Assembly (NCBI GenBank): GCA_903919455.1
Contig: CAIXIJ010000100.1
Location: 1-35,192 of the forward strand
DNA from: an uncultured Acidimicrobiaceae bacterium
GTDB lineage: Bacteria > Actinomycetota > Acidimicrobiia > Acidimicrobiales > Ilumatobacteraceae
DNA length: 35,192 nucleotides
Direction of reading: 5' to 3'
The notes under the pieces were generated by a model, which searched no databases, was not told where the DNA came from, and worked only from the letters and a program-made list of their open reading frames with translations. Position numbers and translations under genes: made by a program. This document shows positions 1 through 7,370 of the stretch, piece after piece; the stretch's first letter is position 1, and every line of letters starts with the position of its first letter.

Positions 1-7
1 CAGGGGC

Positions 8-13
8 TACCGT
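8..13 (+). promoter_or_regulatory. Putative -10 box of dapB (leaderless)
   Basis: TACCGT fits the actinobacterial -10 consensus TANNNT and ends 7 bp before the dapB ATG. Transcription would begin at or next to the A of the start codon. No Shine-Dalgarno sequence lies between. The -35 region is outside the window. Confidence 0.5.
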
Positions 14-20
14 CACTTCC

Positions 21-791
21 ATGAGCGAGATCCGTGTTGGTGTGGTGGGAGCAAGTGGCCGAATGGGAGCCACGGTGTGTGATGCGGTGGCGGCCGATCC
101 CGCCCTGGCGCTCGTTGCGGCGGTCGACCTTCACGCAGCCGGCAATCAGACCCACGGCCTCACCATCGCCCCCGAACTTCGTGCCCTCGCCGACGCCGGT
201 TGCGAGGTTGTGGTGGACTTCACGGTTGCAGAGGCGGCCAGGGTGACGTTGCCGTGGCTTGCCATGCACGGCATGCACGCGGTGGTGGGCACCACTGGTC
301 TCAGCGACGCCGACGTTGATGGCCTCCGCAGCGTTTTCGGCGGCAGCAACTGCTTGATCGCTGCGAACTTCGCGATCAGCGCGGTGCTGATGATGCGCTT
401 TGCCGAACTGGCCGCCCCCTTCTTCGAGACGGCTGAGATCATCGAGTTGCACCACGACGCCAAGATCGACGCTCCGTCGGGTACCGCCGTTGCCACTGCC
501 CGACGCATGGCTGCAGCGAGCGATGAGTGGGCCGCCGACCCCACCCAGCACGAGGTGTACCCCGGCTCGCGTGGCGGTGTCGGACCCGCCGGTATTCACC
601 TTCACGCCGTGCGAATGCGCGGCATGGTGGCGCATCAGGAGGTCATCCTCGGCGCCCAAGGACAGTCGCTCACCATTCGCCAAGACAGTTACGACCGCGC
701 CAGCTTCATGCCGGGCGTTGTGTTGGCATGCAAGCGGATCGCCGACCATCCCGGAGTGACCATCGGCCTCGACGCCCTGTTGGGTGTGTGA
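21..791 (+). CDS. dapB: 4-hydroxy-tetrahydrodipicolinate reductase
   Basis: DapB reduces 4-hydroxy-tetrahydrodipicolinate to tetrahydrodipicolinate with NAD(P)H, the second committed step of the diaminopimelate/lysine pathway in the cytoplasm. The 256-residue protein has the N-terminal nucleotide-binding loop GASGRMG (residues 10-16) and the family signature with the active-site His pair and DAPSGT at about residues 143-153. The length is close to the usual 245-270. The ATG at 21 is chosen because the protein begins exactly at the first beta-strand and a TANNNT box lies 7 bp upstream. The partner gene dapA lies about 9.2 kb downstream rather than adjacent. The 3' end, including the stop codon, is tandemly duplicated just downstream. 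Confidence 0.97.
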   Translation: MSEIRVGVVGASGRMGATVCDAVAADPALALVAAVDLHAAGNQTHGLTIAPELRALADAGCEVVVDFTVAEAARVTLPWLAMHGMHAVVGTTGLSDADVDGLRSVFGGSNCLIAANFAISAVLMMRFAELAAPFFETAEIIELHHDAKIDAPSGTAVATARRMAAASDEWAADPTQHEVYPGSRGGVGPAGIHLHAVRMRGMVAHQEVILGAQGQSLTIRQDSYDRASFMPGVVLACKRIADHPGVTIGLDALLGV

Positions 792-808
792 CCGTGTTGG
801 GTGTGTGA
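778..808 (+). repeat. 17-bp-period tandem duplication of the dapB stop region
   Basis: TGTTGGGTGTGTGA occurs at 778-791, where it ends with the dapB TGA, and again at 795-808, a period of 17 bp. The second copy lies in the short gap between dapB and the convergent membrane-protein gene and supplies a second TGA. It looks like a small slipped-strand duplication. I see no clear terminator in this gap. Confidence 0.75.
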
Positions 809-836
809 TTGGGCCGCAGCCGAAGCCACACGCGCG

Positions 837-1532
837 TCAGCGACCGCGACGGAAGTTGCGCACGTTCACGAGCACCACGACGAGCACTGAACCGACGATG
901 ATCCACATCTGATATCTGGTTGTCCAGTCGATGACGTCGCGCAGTTGCGATTCGAACGCCTTCGCCAACCACCAGATGAGTAGCAGGCGAACGGCGACGC
1001 CCACGGCGAACATCGGGGCGAGGCGCTTCCAGTTCGTCTTGGCGGCACCAGTGAGGGCCCAGATGATGTTGCTGCCCACGAAGAACGGCACCACGATCCA
1101 TTCGGCCTTGGCCACCTGCTGCTCGAACTTGGCCACCTGCTCTTGCGGCATGCCGAGGAAGCGCCAGAACCATCGCAACGCCCGGTCGCCGTAGCACCGA
1201 CCGATCATGTGACACACGATGGCTGCTGCCATCAACCGCAGCGCTCCCACGATGGCCCACTGCAGCGGCGACGACGAAAGTGCGGGCACCGTGAGTACGA
1301 GATAGCGGTTCCGGGACGACAGGGCCAGCAGTTTCAGCGGATGCTCGGACTCCAGCGCCGCCCATGTGCCTGCAGCAATGTTCGTGCACACCACGAGCGC
1401 CACAAAGAGCACCACCCACACTGGGCCGGTGCGCGGCGCAGGCTCGGGCGGAACGACGACATCGTCGATCGCGTCCACCGCCGCCAGGGTCTCGAAGGGT
1501 AGGTCGGATGGCCCGGTTTTGTCGTCGCTCAC
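837..1532 (-). CDS. Integral membrane protein, VTT/DedA-like
   Basis: This 231-residue protein has an acidic, Pro-rich cytoplasmic N-terminus (about residues 1-35), a first TM segment near 37-56, two or three hydrophobic stretches in the middle, and a last TM near 205-222 ending in an Arg-rich tail. The central part, with a Gly-Tyr-Gly-Asp-like turn, a PFFVGSN segment and a following Gly-rich hydrophobic helix, resembles the re-entrant-helix layout of VTT/DedA (SNARE-associated) proteins, which are linked to lipid scrambling. The resemblance is by eye and the family call is tentative. The start is GTG at 1532, because a TAGTGT box lies 7 bp upstream on the minus strand. It is divergent from the cupredoxin gene and convergent with dapB. 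Confidence 0.75.
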   Translation of the reverse strand: MSDDKTGPSDLPFETLAAVDAIDDVVVPPEPAPRTGPVWVVLFVALVVCTNIAAGTWAALESEHPLKLLALSSRNRYLVLTVPALSSSPLQWAIVGALRLMAAAIVCHMIGRCYGDRALRWFWRFLGMPQEQVAKFEQQVAKAEWIVVPFFVGSNIIWALTGAAKTNWKRLAPMFAVGVAVRLLLIWWLAKAFESQLRDVIDWTTRYQMWIIVGSVLVVVLVNVRNFRRGR

Positions 1533-1539
1533 CTACCGC

Positions 1540-1549
1540 ACACTAGAGT
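1540..1549. promoter_or_regulatory. Symmetric bidirectional -10 element
   Basis: The decamer ACACTAGAGT contains TAGTGT on the minus strand (1545 to 1540) and TAGAGT on the plus strand (1544-1549), sharing the central TA. The minus box sits 7 bp from the GTG of the membrane-protein gene. The plus box would start a roughly 45-nt leader for the cupredoxin gene, which has a good Shine-Dalgarno site. It matches the general form ANNNTANNNT expected of a bidirectional promoter. Confidence 0.5.
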
Positions 1550-1602
1550 CCAGTGAGCGATCTGGCTGTGCAAGGTTCGGTCTCTGGGGGAAGGAATTCG
1601 TC

Positions 1603-2028
1603 GTGCGCACTCTCTGCATCGTGACCGCGCTTGCGTTGTTGACGGGTGTCACTGCATGTGGCGCCGACGCCGACGACAGCATCAAGGCGTTGTCGAGCAC
1701 CACCACGGCTGTGCCGAGCGACGTCTCGTTTCCTCCCAACGGCGAGACCGTGAACGTGTTGTCGCTGGACAACAACTTCATCCCGCAGGTCATCGAAGTG
1801 AAGGCCGGCACCGAGGTGCTCTGGGAGAACAACGGTCGGAACCCGCACAACGTGGTGCCCGCCGAGGATCCCAAGGCCACCGAGTGGGGAGTGCTGGAGG
1901 CTGCCTTCCAGCCGAAGGACACCTACTCGCGGGTGTTCGACCGTCCCGGCACCTACGTCTACTACTGCACGATTCATGGCACGCCCAAGGCCGCCATGTT
2001 CGGCACCGTCATCGTCACCGAACCCTGA
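1603..2028 (+). CDS. Cupredoxin-domain lipoprotein (plastocyanin-like)
   Basis: Predicted type 1 blue-copper protein anchored outside the membrane as a lipoprotein, likely carrying electrons or binding copper. The 141-residue product starts at GTG 1603, preceded by the purine-rich Shine-Dalgarno GGGGGAAGGA. Its signal peptide ends in a lipobox with Cys19, followed by an acidic/Thr-rich linker. The copper ligands are visible: His82 in NPHNVV, then Cys122, His125 and Met132 in a YYC-x2-H-x6-M segment. The open frame continues upstream to 1366, but that part is antisense to the membrane-protein gene and lacks a start supported by a ribosome site. It lies first in a run of three secreted lipoproteins on the same strand. 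Confidence 0.9.
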   Translation: MRTLCIVTALALLTGVTACGADADDSIKALSSTTTAVPSDVSFPPNGETVNVLSLDNNFIPQVIEVKAGTEVLWENNGRNPHNVVPAEDPKATEWGVLEAAFQPKDTYSRVFDRPGTYVYYCTIHGTPKAAMFGTVIVTEP

Positions 2029-2069
2029 ACGAACGATCCATCGAGTCATCCATGAAAGGCACCAACCAC

Positions 2070-3491
2070 ATGCAACGTCGCATCCTTGCCGGAGCGCTCG
2101 CCGCCGTTCTCGTCCTTGCCGCGTGCGGTGGCGACGAGTCGTCGTCGGCCACCACGGCCGCACCCGACAGCACCACCGAAGCAACCCAGCCGAGCGATAC
2201 CTCCACGCCGAGTGGGGCCTCCGGCACCATCACGGTGCCCGACGACTTCGCCACGATTCAAGAAGCAGTCGATGCAGCCGAACCCGGTGCGTTGATCTTG
2301 GTGAAGCCCGGCACCTACAGCGAGGCCGTGCAGGTGCAGACCGACAACCTCACCATTCGCGGCCTCGACCGCAACACGGTGGTACTCGACGGCAAGCTGG
2401 AACTGGAGAACGGCATCCGCATCGTGGGAGCCAAGGGCGTGGCCGTGGAGAACATGACCGCCACGAACTACACCCACAACGGCTTCTTCTGGACCGGCGT
2501 CGACGGCTACCGCGGTTCGTACCTCACCACCTATCGCACCGGCGACTACGGCGTGTACGCGTTCGACTCCATGAACGGTCAGCTCGACTACATCTACGCG
2601 GCGGGAAGCCCCGACGCCGGTGTGTACATCGGCGAGTGCTATCCGTGCAACGCGGTGCTGGACCACACCGTGGCCGAGCACAACGGTCTCGGCTACTCGG
2701 GCACGAACTCGGGCGGCAACCTGCTGATCGTGAACTCGATCTTCCGCTTCAACCGCGCTGGCATCGTGCCGAACAGCGGCAGCTACGAGCTCTGCTACCC
2801 GAGCCGTGAGACCACCATCGTCGGTAACGAGGTGTACTCGAACAACCAGGCCGACACGCCGGCGATCGATGTGGCCATTCTCGCCATGGGTAACGGCATC
2901 CTCGTGGCAGGTGGCGTGAAGTCCGACATCCAACGCAACCTCGTGTACGACCACGACAAGACAGGAATCGCCGGGGTGCCCTTCCTCGAGGAAGACCCCA
3001 ACGACTCGATTCCGACCGAGGCCGACTGGGCGCTTCCGTGCTCGGAGCAGAAGAAGAAGACTCCGGTGGATCCGGGCGGCGCGCTTCTGTGGGATGCTCA
3101 ACAAAACCGCATCATCGGCAACGAGGTCACGGGTAACCGGTTGGCCGACATTCTGGTGGCCTCCGCCGGCTCCGACATCAGCACGCTGGGCAACTGCTTC
3201 AGCGACAACAAGGCCGACACGTCGAAGCCGAACAACCTCCAGACTCTGGCACCCTGCGACGCGACGGGTTCGGGCGACTGGAAGGATGGTGAATACGACA
3301 TCACCCAGTGGCTGATCGATGCCACCACGGCCCCGAAGTCGGTGGACTGGAAGACGGCGACGCTGCCCGAACTGCAACCGCAGGAGAGCATGAAGGACGC
3401 CGAGACGGCCCCCGCACACCCGGCCACCGACGTGCCGTTCGCCGTGGACCTTGCGGCCATCAAGGTGCCCGCCAAGAGCCCGGCTCCCTGA
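2070..3491 (+). CDS. Right-handed parallel beta-helix lipoprotein (NosD/pectate-lyase-like fold)
   Basis: A 473-residue exported lipoprotein: signal peptide with lipobox LAAC, Ser/Thr-rich linker (about residues 25-50), then an opening typical of parallel beta-helix proteins (TITVPDDFATIQEAVDAA, followed by a GTY turn). Repeating short strands with Asn/Gly turns continue to about residue 390. A CYPC motif and several further Cys residues lie in the helix. The same fold is used by NosD, which helps mature the copper centre of nitrous-oxide reductase, and by polysaccharide lyases; no catalytic residues can be assigned. ATG 2070 is chosen because AAAGG lies 10 bp upstream; ATG 2052 in the same frame would add six residues. 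The gap to the cupredoxin gene is about 40 bp. Confidence 0.85.
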   Translation: MQRRILAGALAAVLVLAACGGDESSSATTAAPDSTTEATQPSDTSTPSGASGTITVPDDFATIQEAVDAAEPGALILVKPGTYSEAVQVQTDNLTIRGLDRNTVVLDGKLELENGIRIVGAKGVAVENMTATNYTHNGFFWTGVDGYRGSYLTTYRTGDYGVYAFDSMNGQLDYIYAAGSPDAGVYIGECYPCNAVLDHTVAEHNGLGYSGTNSGGNLLIVNSIFRFNRAGIVPNSGSYELCYPSRETTIVGNEVYSNNQADTPAIDVAILAMGNGILVAGGVKSDIQRNLVYDHDKTGIAGVPFLEEDPNDSIPTEADWALPCSEQKKKTPVDPGGALLWDAQQNRIIGNEVTGNRLADILVASAGSDISTLGNCFSDNKADTSKPNNLQTLAPCDATGSGDWKDGEYDITQWLIDATTAPKSVDWKTATLPELQPQESMKDAETAPAHPATDVPFAVDLAAIKVPAKSPAP

Positions 3492-3500
3492 TCGGTCCCG

Positions 3501-4409
3501 ATGCACCGTTTCGCCGTGGCCGTGGCGGTGGTTGCAACCCTTGCGTCGTGCAGTAGCACGGGTGAGGGTGGCGCCACCGCCACAACCGGTCATCAACACA
3601 CCCACACCGACGTCACCTCGCTCGGCCAGCCCGACCACCCAATTGCGGGTCCACAGGGTGCAGTGCCGCAGTTCGTGGTGGAGTGCACCTACGACCATTC
3701 GGCAATGGACGACCCGATCGTGTATCCGGGTCAGCCCGGGGCCAGTCATCTGCACGACTTCTTCGGCAATGTTGGTGTCGATGCGAACACCACGGTCGAC
3801 GAGTTGGTGCAGCACGACACGACGTGCGACCAGAAGATGGACAAGGCCGCCTATTGGGCGCCGGCGCTGTTGAAGGATGGCAATCCGGTCGTGCCGGTGA
3901 AGAGCACGGCGTACTACCGACCCGGCATCGATGTGGACCCAACCATCGTGCAGGCGTTCCCCAAGGGCTTGGTGATGGTGGCGGGAAACGTTGGCACCGA
4001 GAAGGAGCAACCGCTCTCGATCGTGGCGTGGTCGTGCGGTACCGGCATCCGCCGTGATGTCACGCCTCCCGAATGTCACCAGGGTCGCAACCTGCGCCTA
4101 CTGGTGACCTTCCCCGATTGCTGGGATGCCGAGCACCTCGACAGCGACGATCACCACGCCCATGTTGCGTACAGCTCCAAGGGTGTGTGCCCCGAAGGGT
4201 TCCCGACGCCGATCCCGCAGTTGCAGTTCAGCGTGGAGTATTCGGTGTATGGCGCCCCGGACGGGCTGGAGTTGGCCAGCGGTGGGTTGCTCACGGGTCA
4301 TGCCGACTTCATGAACGGTTGGGACGAAGCGCGCCTGCAGGAAGAGGTGGCGCTGTGCCTGCATCGCAAGGTGGTGTGCGGCATCACCAGCGGCCGCAAG
4401 ACCGGCTGA
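3501..4409 (+). CDS. DUF1996-domain lipoprotein with N-terminal HxHxH
   Basis: A 302-residue exported protein. A short signal peptide ends at lipobox Cys17 and is followed by a Gly/Thr linker with three alternating His residues (31, 33, 35). The rest matches the DUF1996 pattern known from fungi and actinobacteria: an early Cys-x-Tyr-Asp, a PG turn then SHLHDFFGN, a WAPAL segment, and a YYRPG motif. The family has no established biochemical function. The HxHxH near the mature N-terminus could bind metal, which would fit the cupredoxin upstream, but this is inference. ATG 3501 lies 9 bp after the beta-helix stop with no clear Shine-Dalgarno site, so translational coupling is likely. Confidence 0.85.
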   Translation: MHRFAVAVAVVATLASCSSTGEGGATATTGHQHTHTDVTSLGQPDHPIAGPQGAVPQFVVECTYDHSAMDDPIVYPGQPGASHLHDFFGNVGVDANTTVDELVQHDTTCDQKMDKAAYWAPALLKDGNPVVPVKSTAYYRPGIDVDPTIVQAFPKGLVMVAGNVGTEKEQPLSIVAWSCGTGIRRDVTPPECHQGRNLRLLVTFPDCWDAEHLDSDDHHAHVAYSSKGVCPEGFPTPIPQLQFSVEYSVYGAPDGLELASGGLLTGHADFMNGWDEARLQEEVALCLHRKVVCGITSGRKTG

Positions 4410-4451
4410 ACGTCGGTTGTGTTCGCAGCACTCAGGTGGGAGCATGCGGAG

Positions 4452-4691
4452 ATGGGCTACGAGGTGCGCGCTGAGGTGGAACTCCGCAAGGTGCCGCACG
4501 AGCACGTGCTCGACAATTTCAACCACGCATTTGGCGCGGTCGAGCATGCGATCGGCTCCAAGGCAGTGACGCTGATCGAACACGTTGCGATGAGCGACGA
4601 GTCTGATGCGCTCGCCTTCGTGCGCGGCTTGGTGCAGGAAGCCGTGCCCGCTGGCACCTCGATCGTGTCGATGGTGGCGACTCCCGACTGA
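4452..4691 (+). CDS. Small conserved-looking protein of unknown function
   Basis: A 79-residue soluble protein, acidic, with no signal peptide, TM segment or Cys. It reads as a small alpha/beta domain: a charged first strand (about residues 3-11), a helix around His17-Gly28, a strand at about 33-40, a helix from about 44 to 59, and a final hydrophobic strand. ATG 4452 is preferred over GTG 4419 because AGGTGGGAG ends 9 bp before it. It ends 6 bp from the convergent ABC-transporter ATPase. I do not recognise the family; a regulatory or dimerising small domain is possible. Confidence 0.6.
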   Translation: MGYEVRAEVELRKVPHEHVLDNFNHAFGAVEHAIGSKAVTLIEHVAMSDESDALAFVRGLVQEAVPAGTSIVSMVATPD

Positions 4692-4697
4692 GCGCCG

Positions 4698-5456
4698 TCA
4701 GAGTCGGCCGCTGGCGATGACGCGCTCGAGGAACTCGGCGGTCTCGGCGTGGGCCGGAGCGGTGAAGAGTTGATCGGGCGGTGCGCTTTCCAGCACCACG
4801 CCGTCCTTCAGGAAGCAGACCTGGTCGCTGATCTCGCGAGCGAAACCCATCTCGTGTGTGGCCAGCACCATTGTCATTCCCTCGTTGCGCATGTCGCGGA
4901 TGACGTTCAGCACTTCGCCCACCAGCACTGGGTCGAGCGCTGCCGTCACTTCGTCGAGCAGCATCAGCTCGGGCTTCATCGCCAATGCCCGCACGATGGC
5001 GACGCGCTGTTGCTGCCCTCCGGAGAGTTGGTCGGGATAGGCGGCGGCCTTGTCGGCCAACGAGAACCTGCTGAGTAGTTCGAGGGCGGCCTCGCGTGCC
5101 TCGGCCTTGTCGTGATGCAGCACTTTGGTGGGTGCCAGTGTGATGTTCTCCAGCACGCTCATGTGTGGGAAAAGGTTGTAGCTCTGGAACACCATGCCGA
5201 TGCGGCGACGAATGGGGTCGGCGTCCAGACCCGGCTCGCTGATGTCGACGCCGTCGAGGAAGATGGCGCCGTCGTCGATGGGTTCGAGCAGGTTGATGCA
5301 GCGCAGCAGTGTGCTCTTCCCAGAACCACTGGCACCGATGAGGCAGACCACTTCGTGTTCGCCCACCTCGAGGGAGACATGGTCCAGCACCACCTTGCGA
5401 TCGTGCTTGCCGCCGAACGACTTCTGCACATCGTCGATGCGAAGTTTGGCGGTCAT
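4698..5456 (-). CDS. Polar amino-acid ABC transporter ATP-binding protein (GlnQ/HisP type)
   Basis: Cytoplasmic ATPase energising the adjacent permease and binding protein. The 252-residue protein has Walker A GASGSGKST (about residues 39-47), the Q-loop in MVFQSYNLFPHM, the signature LSGGQQQR, Walker B LMLLDEVTAALDP and the H-loop in LATHEMGFA. The PAAT-family SYNLFPHM segment and length identify the polar amino-acid subgroup; the transported amino acid cannot be told. Its ATG overlaps the permease stop by 4 bp (ATGA), so the two are translationally coupled. It is the last gene of a three-gene minus-strand operon. Confidence 0.95.
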   Translation of the reverse strand: MTAKLRIDDVQKSFGGKHDRKVVLDHVSLEVGEHEVVCLIGASGSGKSTLLRCINLLEPIDDGAIFLDGVDISEPGLDADPIRRRIGMVFQSYNLFPHMSVLENITLAPTKVLHHDKAEAREAALELLSRFSLADKAAAYPDQLSGGQQQRVAIVRALAMKPELMLLDEVTAALDPVLVGEVLNVIRDMRNEGMTMVLATHEMGFAREISDQVCFLKDGVVLESAPPDQLFTAPAHAETAEFLERVIASGRL

Positions 5457-6367
5457 GTGATGACCGTCCCGCTGGTGCGCTTGCGTTGACGGTTGGTGTA
5501 CCAGTCGACCAATCGGGTCTCGGGAATGGTGAGCACGAGGAAGATCACCGCTGCGGCCACCAGCGGCGTGAAGTTGAAGGTCTTGTCCTTGATGGACGTG
5601 GCCCGTCGAAAGACCTCGACGATCCCGAGAATGCTCAGCAGGGCGACGTCTTTCTGCAACGACAGGAAGTCGTTCATCAGCGGCGGAATGACGCGGCGCA
5701 CGGCCTGGGGGAGCACCACATGCCGCAACGTCTGTGTCTGTGAGAGCCCGAGCGAGCGTGCGCCGGCGCGCTGGCTCTCGTGCACGCTCTCGATGCCGGC
5801 GCGGAACACCTCAGCCACGTAGGCCGAGTACGCCAACACCAATGCGATCGGACCCCACAGATAGGGGGAGTTCCAGGCGCCGCCGAAGCCGAGGAAGTGG
5901 ACGTCGCCCTCGATGAGTTTGAGCTTCGGGATGCCGAAGCCGATGAGGTAAATCGTGAGGATCACCGGCACGCCGCGGAAGAAGTCGGTGTAGACGGCAG
6001 CGAACACCCGCAGCGGGAACAACACCGGATTGCGGGTGTTGCGGCACAGCGCGATCACCATGCCCCAGATGATGATCAGCGGCGCGCATTGCAGGAAGAG
6101 CTTCACGTCGACCCAGAGGTAGCCGAGCAACTCGGGGAAGTCGTCCTTGAACCGGGCGGGGTCGAAGAAGAGCGCCTTCACCTTCGGCCAACCGCTGGAG
6201 CCGGTGACCACGGCGATGACGATGCCGAAGGTGAGCGCCGTGGATGCGAGCGCCACCGTTGCCGAACGGCGGCGGCGACGACGCAACCATTGCTCGCGGC
6301 GGGTGAGCTGCCCCGGTACGCGAGAGGGCGCCGACACGTTGTCGGCGCCCTCGTCGTGTTCGGTCAT
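5453..6367 (-). CDS. Amino-acid ABC transporter permease (HisM/GlnP type)
   Basis: Membrane subunit of the importer, 304 residues. A long cytoplasmic N-terminus with an Arg cluster (about residues 24-35) precedes the first TM helix near 40-58. The C-terminal half carries the EAA loop that docks on the ATPase (AGARSLGLSQTQTLRHVVLP, about residues 205-224). Only one permease gene is present, which implies a homodimer. The N-terminal extension and an extra loop between TM1 and TM2 make it longer than the typical 220-250 residues. Start at ATG 6367, 19 bp after the binding-protein gene. Confidence 0.93.
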   Translation of the reverse strand: MTEHDEGADNVSAPSRVPGQLTRREQWLRRRRRRSATVALASTALTFGIVIAVVTGSSGWPKVKALFFDPARFKDDFPELLGYLWVDVKLFLQCAPLIIIWGMVIALCRNTRNPVLFPLRVFAAVYTDFFRGVPVILTIYLIGFGIPKLKLIEGDVHFLGFGGAWNSPYLWGPIALVLAYSAYVAEVFRAGIESVHESQRAGARSLGLSQTQTLRHVVLPQAVRRVIPPLMNDFLSLQKDVALLSILGIVEVFRRATSIKDKTFNFTPLVAAAVIFLVLTIPETRLVDWYTNRQRKRTSGTVIT

Positions 6368-6386
6368 GGTGGGAGAGGCTAGAGCC

Positions 6387-7286
6387 TCAGCTCTCCGGCA
6401 GCGTGGGTGCCTCGGTGTAGTTGCTCATCCACTCGGTGGTGATCTTGTCGAGATCGCCCGAGGCCTTGATGTTCGCGAGGGCGATGTTGGCGCACTCCAC
6501 GAGCGGATTGTCCTTGGCGAACAGCAGACCCCACTGATCGCCACCCTGGTCGCCGAGCGGGAACTGGCCAAACACCTTGGTGTTGTCGATGCCGCCAAAC
6601 TCGGCACCGGCATTGGCCCAGAAGATGGCGGTGGGCAGGTCGGAGATGATGGCGTCGATCTGCTTGTTGTCGAGCGCAGTGGCTGCGTCGGCGTTGCTGT
6701 TGAAGGTGAACGCCTCGGCGTCGGGCTTGATGACGTCGCTGATGTAGGTGAGGCTGGTGGTGCCAGCAGCGGCGCCGAGCTTCAACTTCTTCAGGTCGGC
6801 GATGCTCTTCACGCTGGCCGCCGGGCCATCCGTGTAGCCGATGAGCGCCTGGTTGGCCGTGTAGTACGGGTCGCTGAACGACACCACCTTCTGGCGGTCG
6901 GCGTTGATGGTGAACTGCTGCAGGTTGAAGTCGAACGTCGTGTCGTCGCCGGCCACGGCCGTGTCGAACGAGGTGCGCACCCACTTCACGGTGTCGCCTT
7001 CGAAGCCGAGTTCCTTGGCAACGGCCAGGGCCAGTGCGGACTCGAAACCCTTACCGGCCTCGGGCTTGTCGTCGATGACGTAGGGCGGGAAGGCCGGGTC
7101 GCCGGTGGCGATGGTGAGGCTGGCGGCATCGAGGGTCTTGCCCTGCGCACATGCCTTGGCGTCGCCACCACTGGCCGCAGCCGTGGTGTCGGGAGCGTTG
7201 GTGGCGGGGGAGGACGTGCTGTCGCTGCCGCAGGCGGCGAACAACACCGCGCCGGCGGCGGCGAGCACGAGGATCTGACGCTTCAT
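6387..7286 (-). CDS. Amino-acid ABC transporter substrate-binding lipoprotein (SBP_bac_3)
   Basis: Extracytoplasmic receptor of the importer, 299 residues. The signal peptide ends with lipobox FAAC, followed by a Ser/Thr linker. The family 3 fold is shown by the opening TIATGDPAFPPYVI, the segment with Arg preceding VVSFSDPYY, and DAIISDLP near the end of lobe 2; the conserved Arg and Asp are the usual ligands of the amino acid's carboxylate and amino groups. ATG 7286 is chosen because AAGGAG lies 10 bp upstream and the protein then begins MKRQ at a proper signal peptide. It is the first gene of the operon and is divergent from tetR. Confidence 0.94.
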   Translation of the reverse strand: MKRQILVLAAAGAVLFAACGSDSTSSPATNAPDTTAAASGGDAKACAQGKTLDAASLTIATGDPAFPPYVIDDKPEAGKGFESALALAVAKELGFEGDTVKWVRTSFDTAVAGDDTTFDFNLQQFTINADRQKVVSFSDPYYTANQALIGYTDGPAASVKSIADLKKLKLGAAAGTTSLTYISDVIKPDAEAFTFNSNADAATALDNKQIDAIISDLPTAIFWANAGAEFGGIDNTKVFGQFPLGDQGGDQWGLLFAKDNPLVECANIALANIKASGDLDKITTEWMSNYTEAPTLPES

Positions 7287-7370
7287 TGGAATGAGGCTCC
7301 TTGAAAGAGGTTCACGAGCGCGGTGCGCGGGACACCGGCCAGACAACGATAGCAACCGAGTCCTAAATAT

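Follow-up and report, generated by a model that had tools for sequence, protein, structure and literature searches.

Beta-helix proteins of the TIGR03805 family come paired with a TIGR03806 protein, and the combination of a beta-helix with an electron carrier is a known but unexplained kind of arrangement. The beta-helix fold is also that of NosD, from the nitrous-oxide reductase system, and of alginate-modifying enzymes such as the mannuronan C5-epimerase AlgE4. The DUF1996 domain is common to fungi and bacteria; when three DUF1996 genes of Beauveria bassiana were deleted one at a time, the fungus became more sensitive to the cell-wall dyes Congo red and calcofluor white, to several other stressors and to five or six metal ions (PMC4738358). 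Here we compare these systems with a locus on a 35,192-nucleotide stretch of DNA (the window), which is the entire contig C100 of a draft genome (G000, 97% complete) of an uncultured Acidimicrobiaceae bacterium, with a G+C content of 65%. Its three genes encode a blue-copper protein (cupredoxin), a right-handed beta-helix protein and a DUF1996 protein. They almost certainly form one functional unit, which we read, with about even confidence, as a conserved cell-surface redox module in which DUF1996 is a new third partner. The genes and their residues of interest are as follows.

1603-2028, + strand: cupredoxin lipoprotein (blue copper), GTG start, 141 amino acids; PF00127 (plastocyanin/azurin type) at 43.5 bits against a cut-off of 21.2
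1846-1848 (H82), 1966-1968 (C122), 1975-1977 (H125) and 1996-1998 (M132), + strand: codons of the type-1 copper ligands of the cupredoxin
2052-3491, + strand: right-handed beta-helix lipoprotein, 479 amino acids, with an inner ATG at 2070; PF13229 at 49.7 bits against a cut-off of 25.9
2637-2639 (C196) and 2646-2648 (C199), + strand: codons of the CxxC motif (CYPC) of the beta-helix
3501-4409, + strand: exported DUF1996 protein with a lipobox, 302 amino acids; PF09362 over the whole model at 149.2 bits against a cut-off of 27
3591-3605, + strand: N-terminal HxHxH (H31, H33, H35) of the DUF1996 protein, not conserved
3747-3749 (H83), 3753-3755 (H85), 4299-4301 (H267) and 4305-4307 (D269), + strand: codons of a candidate metal site of the DUF1996 protein

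The first-pass annotation of the window had placed three exported lipoproteins in a row, and the genes lie exactly at 1603-4409, all scoring above their Pfam cut-offs. Only 23 bases separate the cupredoxin and beta-helix genes, and 9 bases the beta-helix and DUF1996 genes. Lipobox cysteines, as read from the sequence, follow the signal peptides at C19 of the cupredoxin, C25 of the beta-helix and C17 of the DUF1996 protein.

The trio is conserved among close relatives. A beta-helix search of 61 related genomes gave matches at E 0.001 in 45, many of which reach no further than the signal peptide and linker, within the first 50-100 residues; in the 31 regions read, the three genes adjoin one another both within the window's genus and in further families, as exemplified by L044, L054 and L055, at which no flanking gene of the window was detected. 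A scan of 84,980 species genomes yielded 554 beta-helix relatives, and since the best 80 of these (L132-L211) were analyzed, the counts that follow hold for close relatives. Most of the 80 are metagenome-assembled genomes titled Actinomycetota, Acidimicrobiia, Acidimicrobiales, Acidimicrobiaceae or Ilumatobacter, the nearest named record being an Acidimicrobiaceae genome of this kind (L132) with a 99% identical beta-helix; three titled Bifidobacterium breve, one Thermoanaerobacterales and one Acidobacteria may be misnamed. With thresholds of 60 bits for the beta-helix, 60 for DUF1996 and 40 for the cupredoxin, below which matches were dropped, all three genes are present at 69 of the 80 loci. 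The order cupredoxin, beta-helix, DUF1996 is kept in one direction at 52 loci and at two more with an extra beta-helix, while 15 are rearranged to beta-helix, DUF1996 and a convergent cupredoxin (13, plus two with a second beta-helix). Seven of the remaining 11 lack the cupredoxin, three lack DUF1996 and one carries a cupredoxin-beta-helix fusion at a contig end; ten of them reach a contig end on the side where the absent gene could be, and L192, without the cupredoxin, is the sole incomplete locus with ample flank on both sides. At 51 collinear loci, counting from where the profile matches begin, the gap between cupredoxin and beta-helix is 5-182 bases (with a single exception of 1881) and that between beta-helix and DUF1996 is -28 to 97 bases. 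A second beta-helix gene stands directly behind DUF1996 at L039 (708-2156), L051 (1965-3383), L196 (3087-4544) and L205 (12320-13765). The first-pass annotation had suggested looking for this gene order in other actinobacteria; its strong conservation makes the other possibility then raised, that of three unrelated exports, unlikely.

More widely in the phylum, it is the cupredoxin and the beta-helix that stay together. DUF1996 was found in 45 of 296 phylum genomes, the beta-helix (E 1e-20) in 51 and the cupredoxin (E 1e-10) in 121. Outside the trio clade, 44 genomes were beta-helix-positive, and we read the loci of 33 of them (L212-L245 except L243), the 11 omitted being mostly weak or fragmentary (G057, G081, G085, G142, G177, G215, G219, G262, G272, G282 and G297). 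Cupredoxin and beta-helix share one open frame at 20 of these 33 loci, and a separate adjoining cupredoxin is present at three, one at just 41 bits. Each of the five fused frames scanned matches Pfam Copper-bind and Beta_helix, and two match PLDc_N at the C-terminus as well. The fused proteins L216 (6424-8388) and L222 (6194-8692) end in such a PLDc_N-type tail, which is probably membrane-spanning and an alternative to the lipid anchor. Fusions also occur in two trio-type relatives, L041 and L186; because L041 is nested among trio-type rows in the beta-helix tree, from which L186 is absent, fusion probably arose more than once.

DUF1996 adjoins the beta-helix at none of the 33 phylum loci outside the trio clade, although seven of those genomes carry it on another contig. 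A recurrent neighbour at 12 phylum loci matches both Cu-oxidase_2 and Cu-oxidase_3 in 12 of 12 cases. As a profile built from these neighbours recovers them by construction, PF07732 served as the independent test: in 14 of 33 genomes, from just six families, it detected a multicopper oxidase no more than 3 kb away from the beta-helix, compared with 0.10 expected for randomly placed oxidases. The custom profile had no match in the window or the trio loci read, and all three PF07732 matches in the window's genome lie on other contigs. In a beta-helix tree of 99 rows, from which the loci with even numbers in L132-L211 and most loci of the same genus were omitted, all 56 DUF1996-linked rows fall within one cluster of 59 (support 97), whose other members are the fused L212 and two loci truncated by a contig end. 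Most fused rows lie in the adjacent clade, as do eight of the 14 oxidase-linked rows, the other six being on deeper branches, with some placements made unsure by long branches. The most widely kept pair is cupredoxin plus beta-helix; one clade adds DUF1996 as the third partner, and another frequently a multicopper oxidase.

Common regional ancestry could instead have kept three unrelated exported proteins side by side, and the genes flanking the trio are indeed conserved in the window's genus. These flanking genes are listed below.

21-791: dapB, upstream of the trio
837-1532, - strand: protein matched by neither Pfam nor NCBIfam and judged by eye to be probably a membrane protein, upstream of the trio
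4698-7355, - strand: ABC transporter (ATPase, permease and family-3 binding protein), downstream of the trio

Among 33 trio loci flanked by at least 5 kb on either side, dapB or the 837-1532 protein recurs at 16 and neither is present at 17, so that the trio is more than mere synteny; eight of the 17 retain some ABC ATPase. The rearranged layout and the fusion of cupredoxin and beta-helix also speak against an association by regional ancestry alone, which we consider very improbable. Clustering of the neighbours at 50 loci, with genes called by a custom rule based on G+C at third codon positions (L239 was not called) and named by eye, gave acyl-CoA synthetase, dapB, thiol peroxidase, an ABC transporter and TetR, all common among the related genomes, and no copper-tied gene was recognised. 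Homologues of the 837-1532 protein adjoin many trio loci (a cluster in 16 of 50). The statement of the first-pass annotation that no ABC partner is nearby holds for a partner of the Nos type but overlooks the transporter on the other strand. A 90-residue open frame downstream of the trio gave no family match, and an Rfam scan returned a tRNA as its sole result. A promoter and terminator scan of positions 1-6000 gave 1 and 4 sites against 0.4 and 3.4 expected and was not used as evidence.

The cupredoxin carries the complete blue-copper ligand set that had been reported for it. In 122 aligned cupredoxin stretches, the two histidines and the cysteine are present in every case and the methionine in 118, with glutamine in the other four. 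Glutamine as axial ligand is stellacyanin-like; it occurs at L056, L214, L152 and L154. The protein is not plastocyanin proper, as it scores 56.5 bits against the equivalog cut-off of 87.85 of TIGR02656. The lipobox cysteine C19 is kept in 21 of 21 rows of alignment A2 (alignments A1, A2 and A3 drew on 21 of 34, 20 of 24 and 19 of 22 available rows). The cupredoxin would carry single electrons on type-1 copper. Since the two form one chain in many relatives, the beta-helix may be the dedicated scaffold or docking partner of the cupredoxin.

The CYPC motif noted in the beta-helix is confirmed as C196-x-x-C199. In an alignment of 62 sequences (A5; 61 of 69 available rows plus the window), C25, C196, C199 and C402 are invariant, C248 and C330 are kept in 61 and C382 in 59. 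With this motif, the beta-helix might load the cupredoxin or an exported cuproenzyme in the manner of NosD, the lipoproteins binding copper or another metal for capture and delivery. The NosD chain 7o0y_A is indeed among the structural neighbours of the AlphaFold model (predicted local distance difference test score, pLDDT, 89.5), at rank 11 with Z 27.3, a root-mean-square deviation (rmsd) of 3.0 and 265 aligned residues. The adjoining multicopper oxidases in 14 of 33 genomes could be clients, and a TonB receptor gene precedes the Novosphingobium beta-helix and cytochrome pair described below. However, the beta-helix has no invariant histidine, the recurrent neighbours that were examined included no recognisable copper transporter or chaperone, and the alphaproteobacterial partner is a haem protein. 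Pfam NosD is matched just above its cut-off (27.2 against 23.6 bits), the NosD model TIGR04247 gave 32.6 bits where 300 are required, and among 28 searched genomes carrying the beta-helix, NosL was found in none and nosZ in two, the window's genome having neither. On these results we reject membership in the nitrous-oxide reductase system, and the proposed NosD link comes down to likeness at the level of the fold. Metal delivery retains real weight because of the CxxC motif and the NosD-like fold, but we regard it as doubtful.

In the DUF1996 protein, a different set of residues is conserved from the one first pointed out. The mature N-terminus does bear HxHxH at residues 31-35, but only four of 68 homologues have this motif before residue 50 and 12 have three or more histidines there, so that we rejected it as a conserved metal site. 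By contrast, H83, H85, H267, D269, Y118, W119, R140 and eight cysteines are invariant in all 68 (alignment A4; 67 of 72 available rows plus the window), and H66 and H221 are conserved in 67; a lipobox-like motif is present in 51. When 25 distant DUF1996 proteins of the phylum are added, H267 and H221 are still invariant and H83, H85 and D269 are kept in at least 90%. Against solved structures, the model of the protein (pLDDT 89.8) gave no Foldseek match at E <=0.001 and a best Z of 2.3 with VIA-align. A profile match to 8sxq (E 1.7e-4, about 75 residues) was judged to be local similarity only. These searches of a predicted structure do not demonstrate a new fold. Three of the 25 distant proteins (L063 829-2205, L069 and L075 595-2277) combine DUF1996 with a CBM6 or F5/8-type C domain, which hints at a tie to carbohydrates in those actinobacteria. 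The fungal residue formula published in PMC4738358 includes HxH and HxDxxxGW; the window protein has all of its named residues save an alanine for one serine, with three spacers widened.

Related beta-helices beyond the phylum were sought in a plasmid collection, in which 12 records matched and six were inspected (H1, H3, H7, H10, H11 and H12 were left unopened); a second search added one further record (H15). On the plasmid of Novosphingobium sp. EMRT-2, which came from the second search, a TonB receptor gene and the beta-helix gene are followed 11 bases on by a di-haem cytochrome annotated as SO2930 family. The beta-helix of Ruegeria pomeroyi DSS-3 exceeds the TIGR03805 cut-off with 163 bits, and its C-terminus matches a cytochrome c domain weakly (E 1.2e-5; 25.9 bits, cut-off 27). 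Upstream of it lie genes encoding a cytochrome c, a TPR protein and, two genes before it on the megaplasmid (L254 3698-4816), a di-haem protein that resembles MauG and MbnH but scores below the NCBIfam cut-offs. In methanobactin operons, the target of MbnH is a copper protein. Three papers name SO_2930 and SO_2931 among the outer-membrane or extracellular cytochromes of Shewanella. Two haloarchaeal plasmids, of Haladaptatus and Natrinema (L252 6899-8104 and L253 6896-7777), carry beta-helices about 47% identical over half of the window protein, which fall among the actinobacterial fused forms in the tree and were possibly transferred between domains; no cupredoxin was found among the two upstream proteins scanned in each record.

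What was observed, and what the proposal of a cell-surface redox module builds on, is that the gene set is conserved, that cupredoxin and beta-helix fuse, that related beta-helices have an oxidase or cytochrome as partner, and that the copper ligands and the histidine, aspartate and cysteine set of DUF1996 are invariant. As the partners vary between DUF1996, a multicopper oxidase and, in two alphaproteobacteria, a haem carrier, surface electron transfer is the simplest common denominator. The three exported, mostly lipid-anchored proteins would act jointly at the cell surface. DUF1996, standing in the position held by a multicopper oxidase in relatives, would be the third and probably catalytic partner, with a putative metal site of the His-x-His/His-x-Asp type set in a beta fold rich in disulfides. 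What we infer from these patterns is the flow of electrons, the metal site and disulfides of DUF1996, its substrate and its enzymatic nature. A bolder form of the idea, which we consider rather unlikely, is that DUF1996 proteins are extracellular, metal-dependent redox enzymes of a class not yet recognised, which replace the multicopper oxidase and share the HxH/HxD site with their fungal homologues. The first-pass annotation had offered a copper-handling or extracellular electron-transfer module; the fusions and oxidases strengthen its module and its copper/redox theme, while its NosD and HxHxH arguments fell away.

Several observations weigh against this proposal. No cupredoxin was found at the 40-bit threshold at 10 of the 33 phylum loci, and one genome (G122) holds both DUF1996 and an oxidase-linked beta-helix on separate contigs, so that the two partners are not exclusive genome-wide. 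Four of the seven plasmid records inspected (Hymenobacter volaticus, Streptomyces camelliae and the two haloarchaeal ones) show no redox neighbour, and annotation is absent around the beta-helix in the S. clavuligerus record. Copper sensitivity was unaltered in the Beauveria deletions (PMC4738358), which counts against a copper role in fungi but not against a redox role. Finally, the solved structures nearest to the beta-helix model are alginate epimerases and lyases, with five entries within 1 Z unit (Z 31.4-32.2), headed by AlgE4 (2pyh_A, Z 32.2, rmsd 2.6, 292 aligned residues).

Such a fold would suit polysaccharide processing, with an epimerase- or lyase-like beta-helix, a carbohydrate-active DUF1996 and a cupredoxin that is accessory or feeds oxidative sugar cleavage; the CBM6 and F5/8-type C domains and the dye sensitivity of the fungal deletions point the same way. 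A grouping with polysaccharide lyases had been named beforehand as a sign against a metal system, and it is half borne out: epimerases and lyases are structurally closer than NosD, but a common beta-helix fold says little about function. To our knowledge, an obligate blue-copper partner is unusual for epimerases, which counts against this explanation, and, save for a GH127 gene near the Hymenobacter copy, it is oxidase and cytochrome genes, not glycoside genes, that are conserved next to the beta-helix. Polysaccharide processing keeps real weight because of the epimerase-like fold and the carbohydrate-associated domains on DUF1996 proteins, yet we hold it to be unlikely.

Read as a surface redox module, the trio ties DUF1996, a domain of fungi and bacteria alike, to a blue-copper protein, and offers an experimental handle on its function through three small exported proteins. 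A beta-helix family is also connected with electron carriers across two phyla (a cupredoxin in actinobacteria and, in two alphaproteobacteria, a cytochrome c), and the largely uncultured Acidimicrobiia would have a surface redox system that has apparently escaped study. A search of titles and abstract openings, with thin coverage of the subscription literature, found no description of a cupredoxin/beta-helix/DUF1996 module, and the fusions treated in PMC8756737 differ from those here.

Each of the described systems shares part of this design. NosD has in common with the window's beta-helix the right-handed fold and the weak Pfam match, but differs in its own family model and in the NosL and nosZ that accompany it. 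AlgE4 and the alginate enzymes are the nearest solved folds, although a profile search gave no sequence match to them at E up to 1 and the window protein has a cupredoxin partner. The Novosphingobium pair (TIGR03805 and TIGR03806) likewise joins a member of the beta-helix superfamily to an adjoining electron-transfer protein, with haem there and blue copper here; the window beta-helix scores 74.3 bits against the TIGR03805 cut-off of 141.5, its third gene is DUF1996, and a TIGR03806 search of the genome gave no match, the controls being equally silent. The Beauveria proteins have the same DUF1996 domain with its HxH and HxDxxxGW signature, but are vacuolar and standalone (PMC4738358), whereas the bacterial protein is exported and belongs to a three-gene set. 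In the fused proteins of other actinobacteria, cupredoxin and beta-helix are homologous to those of the window but form a single chain, with an adjoining oxidase instead of DUF1996.

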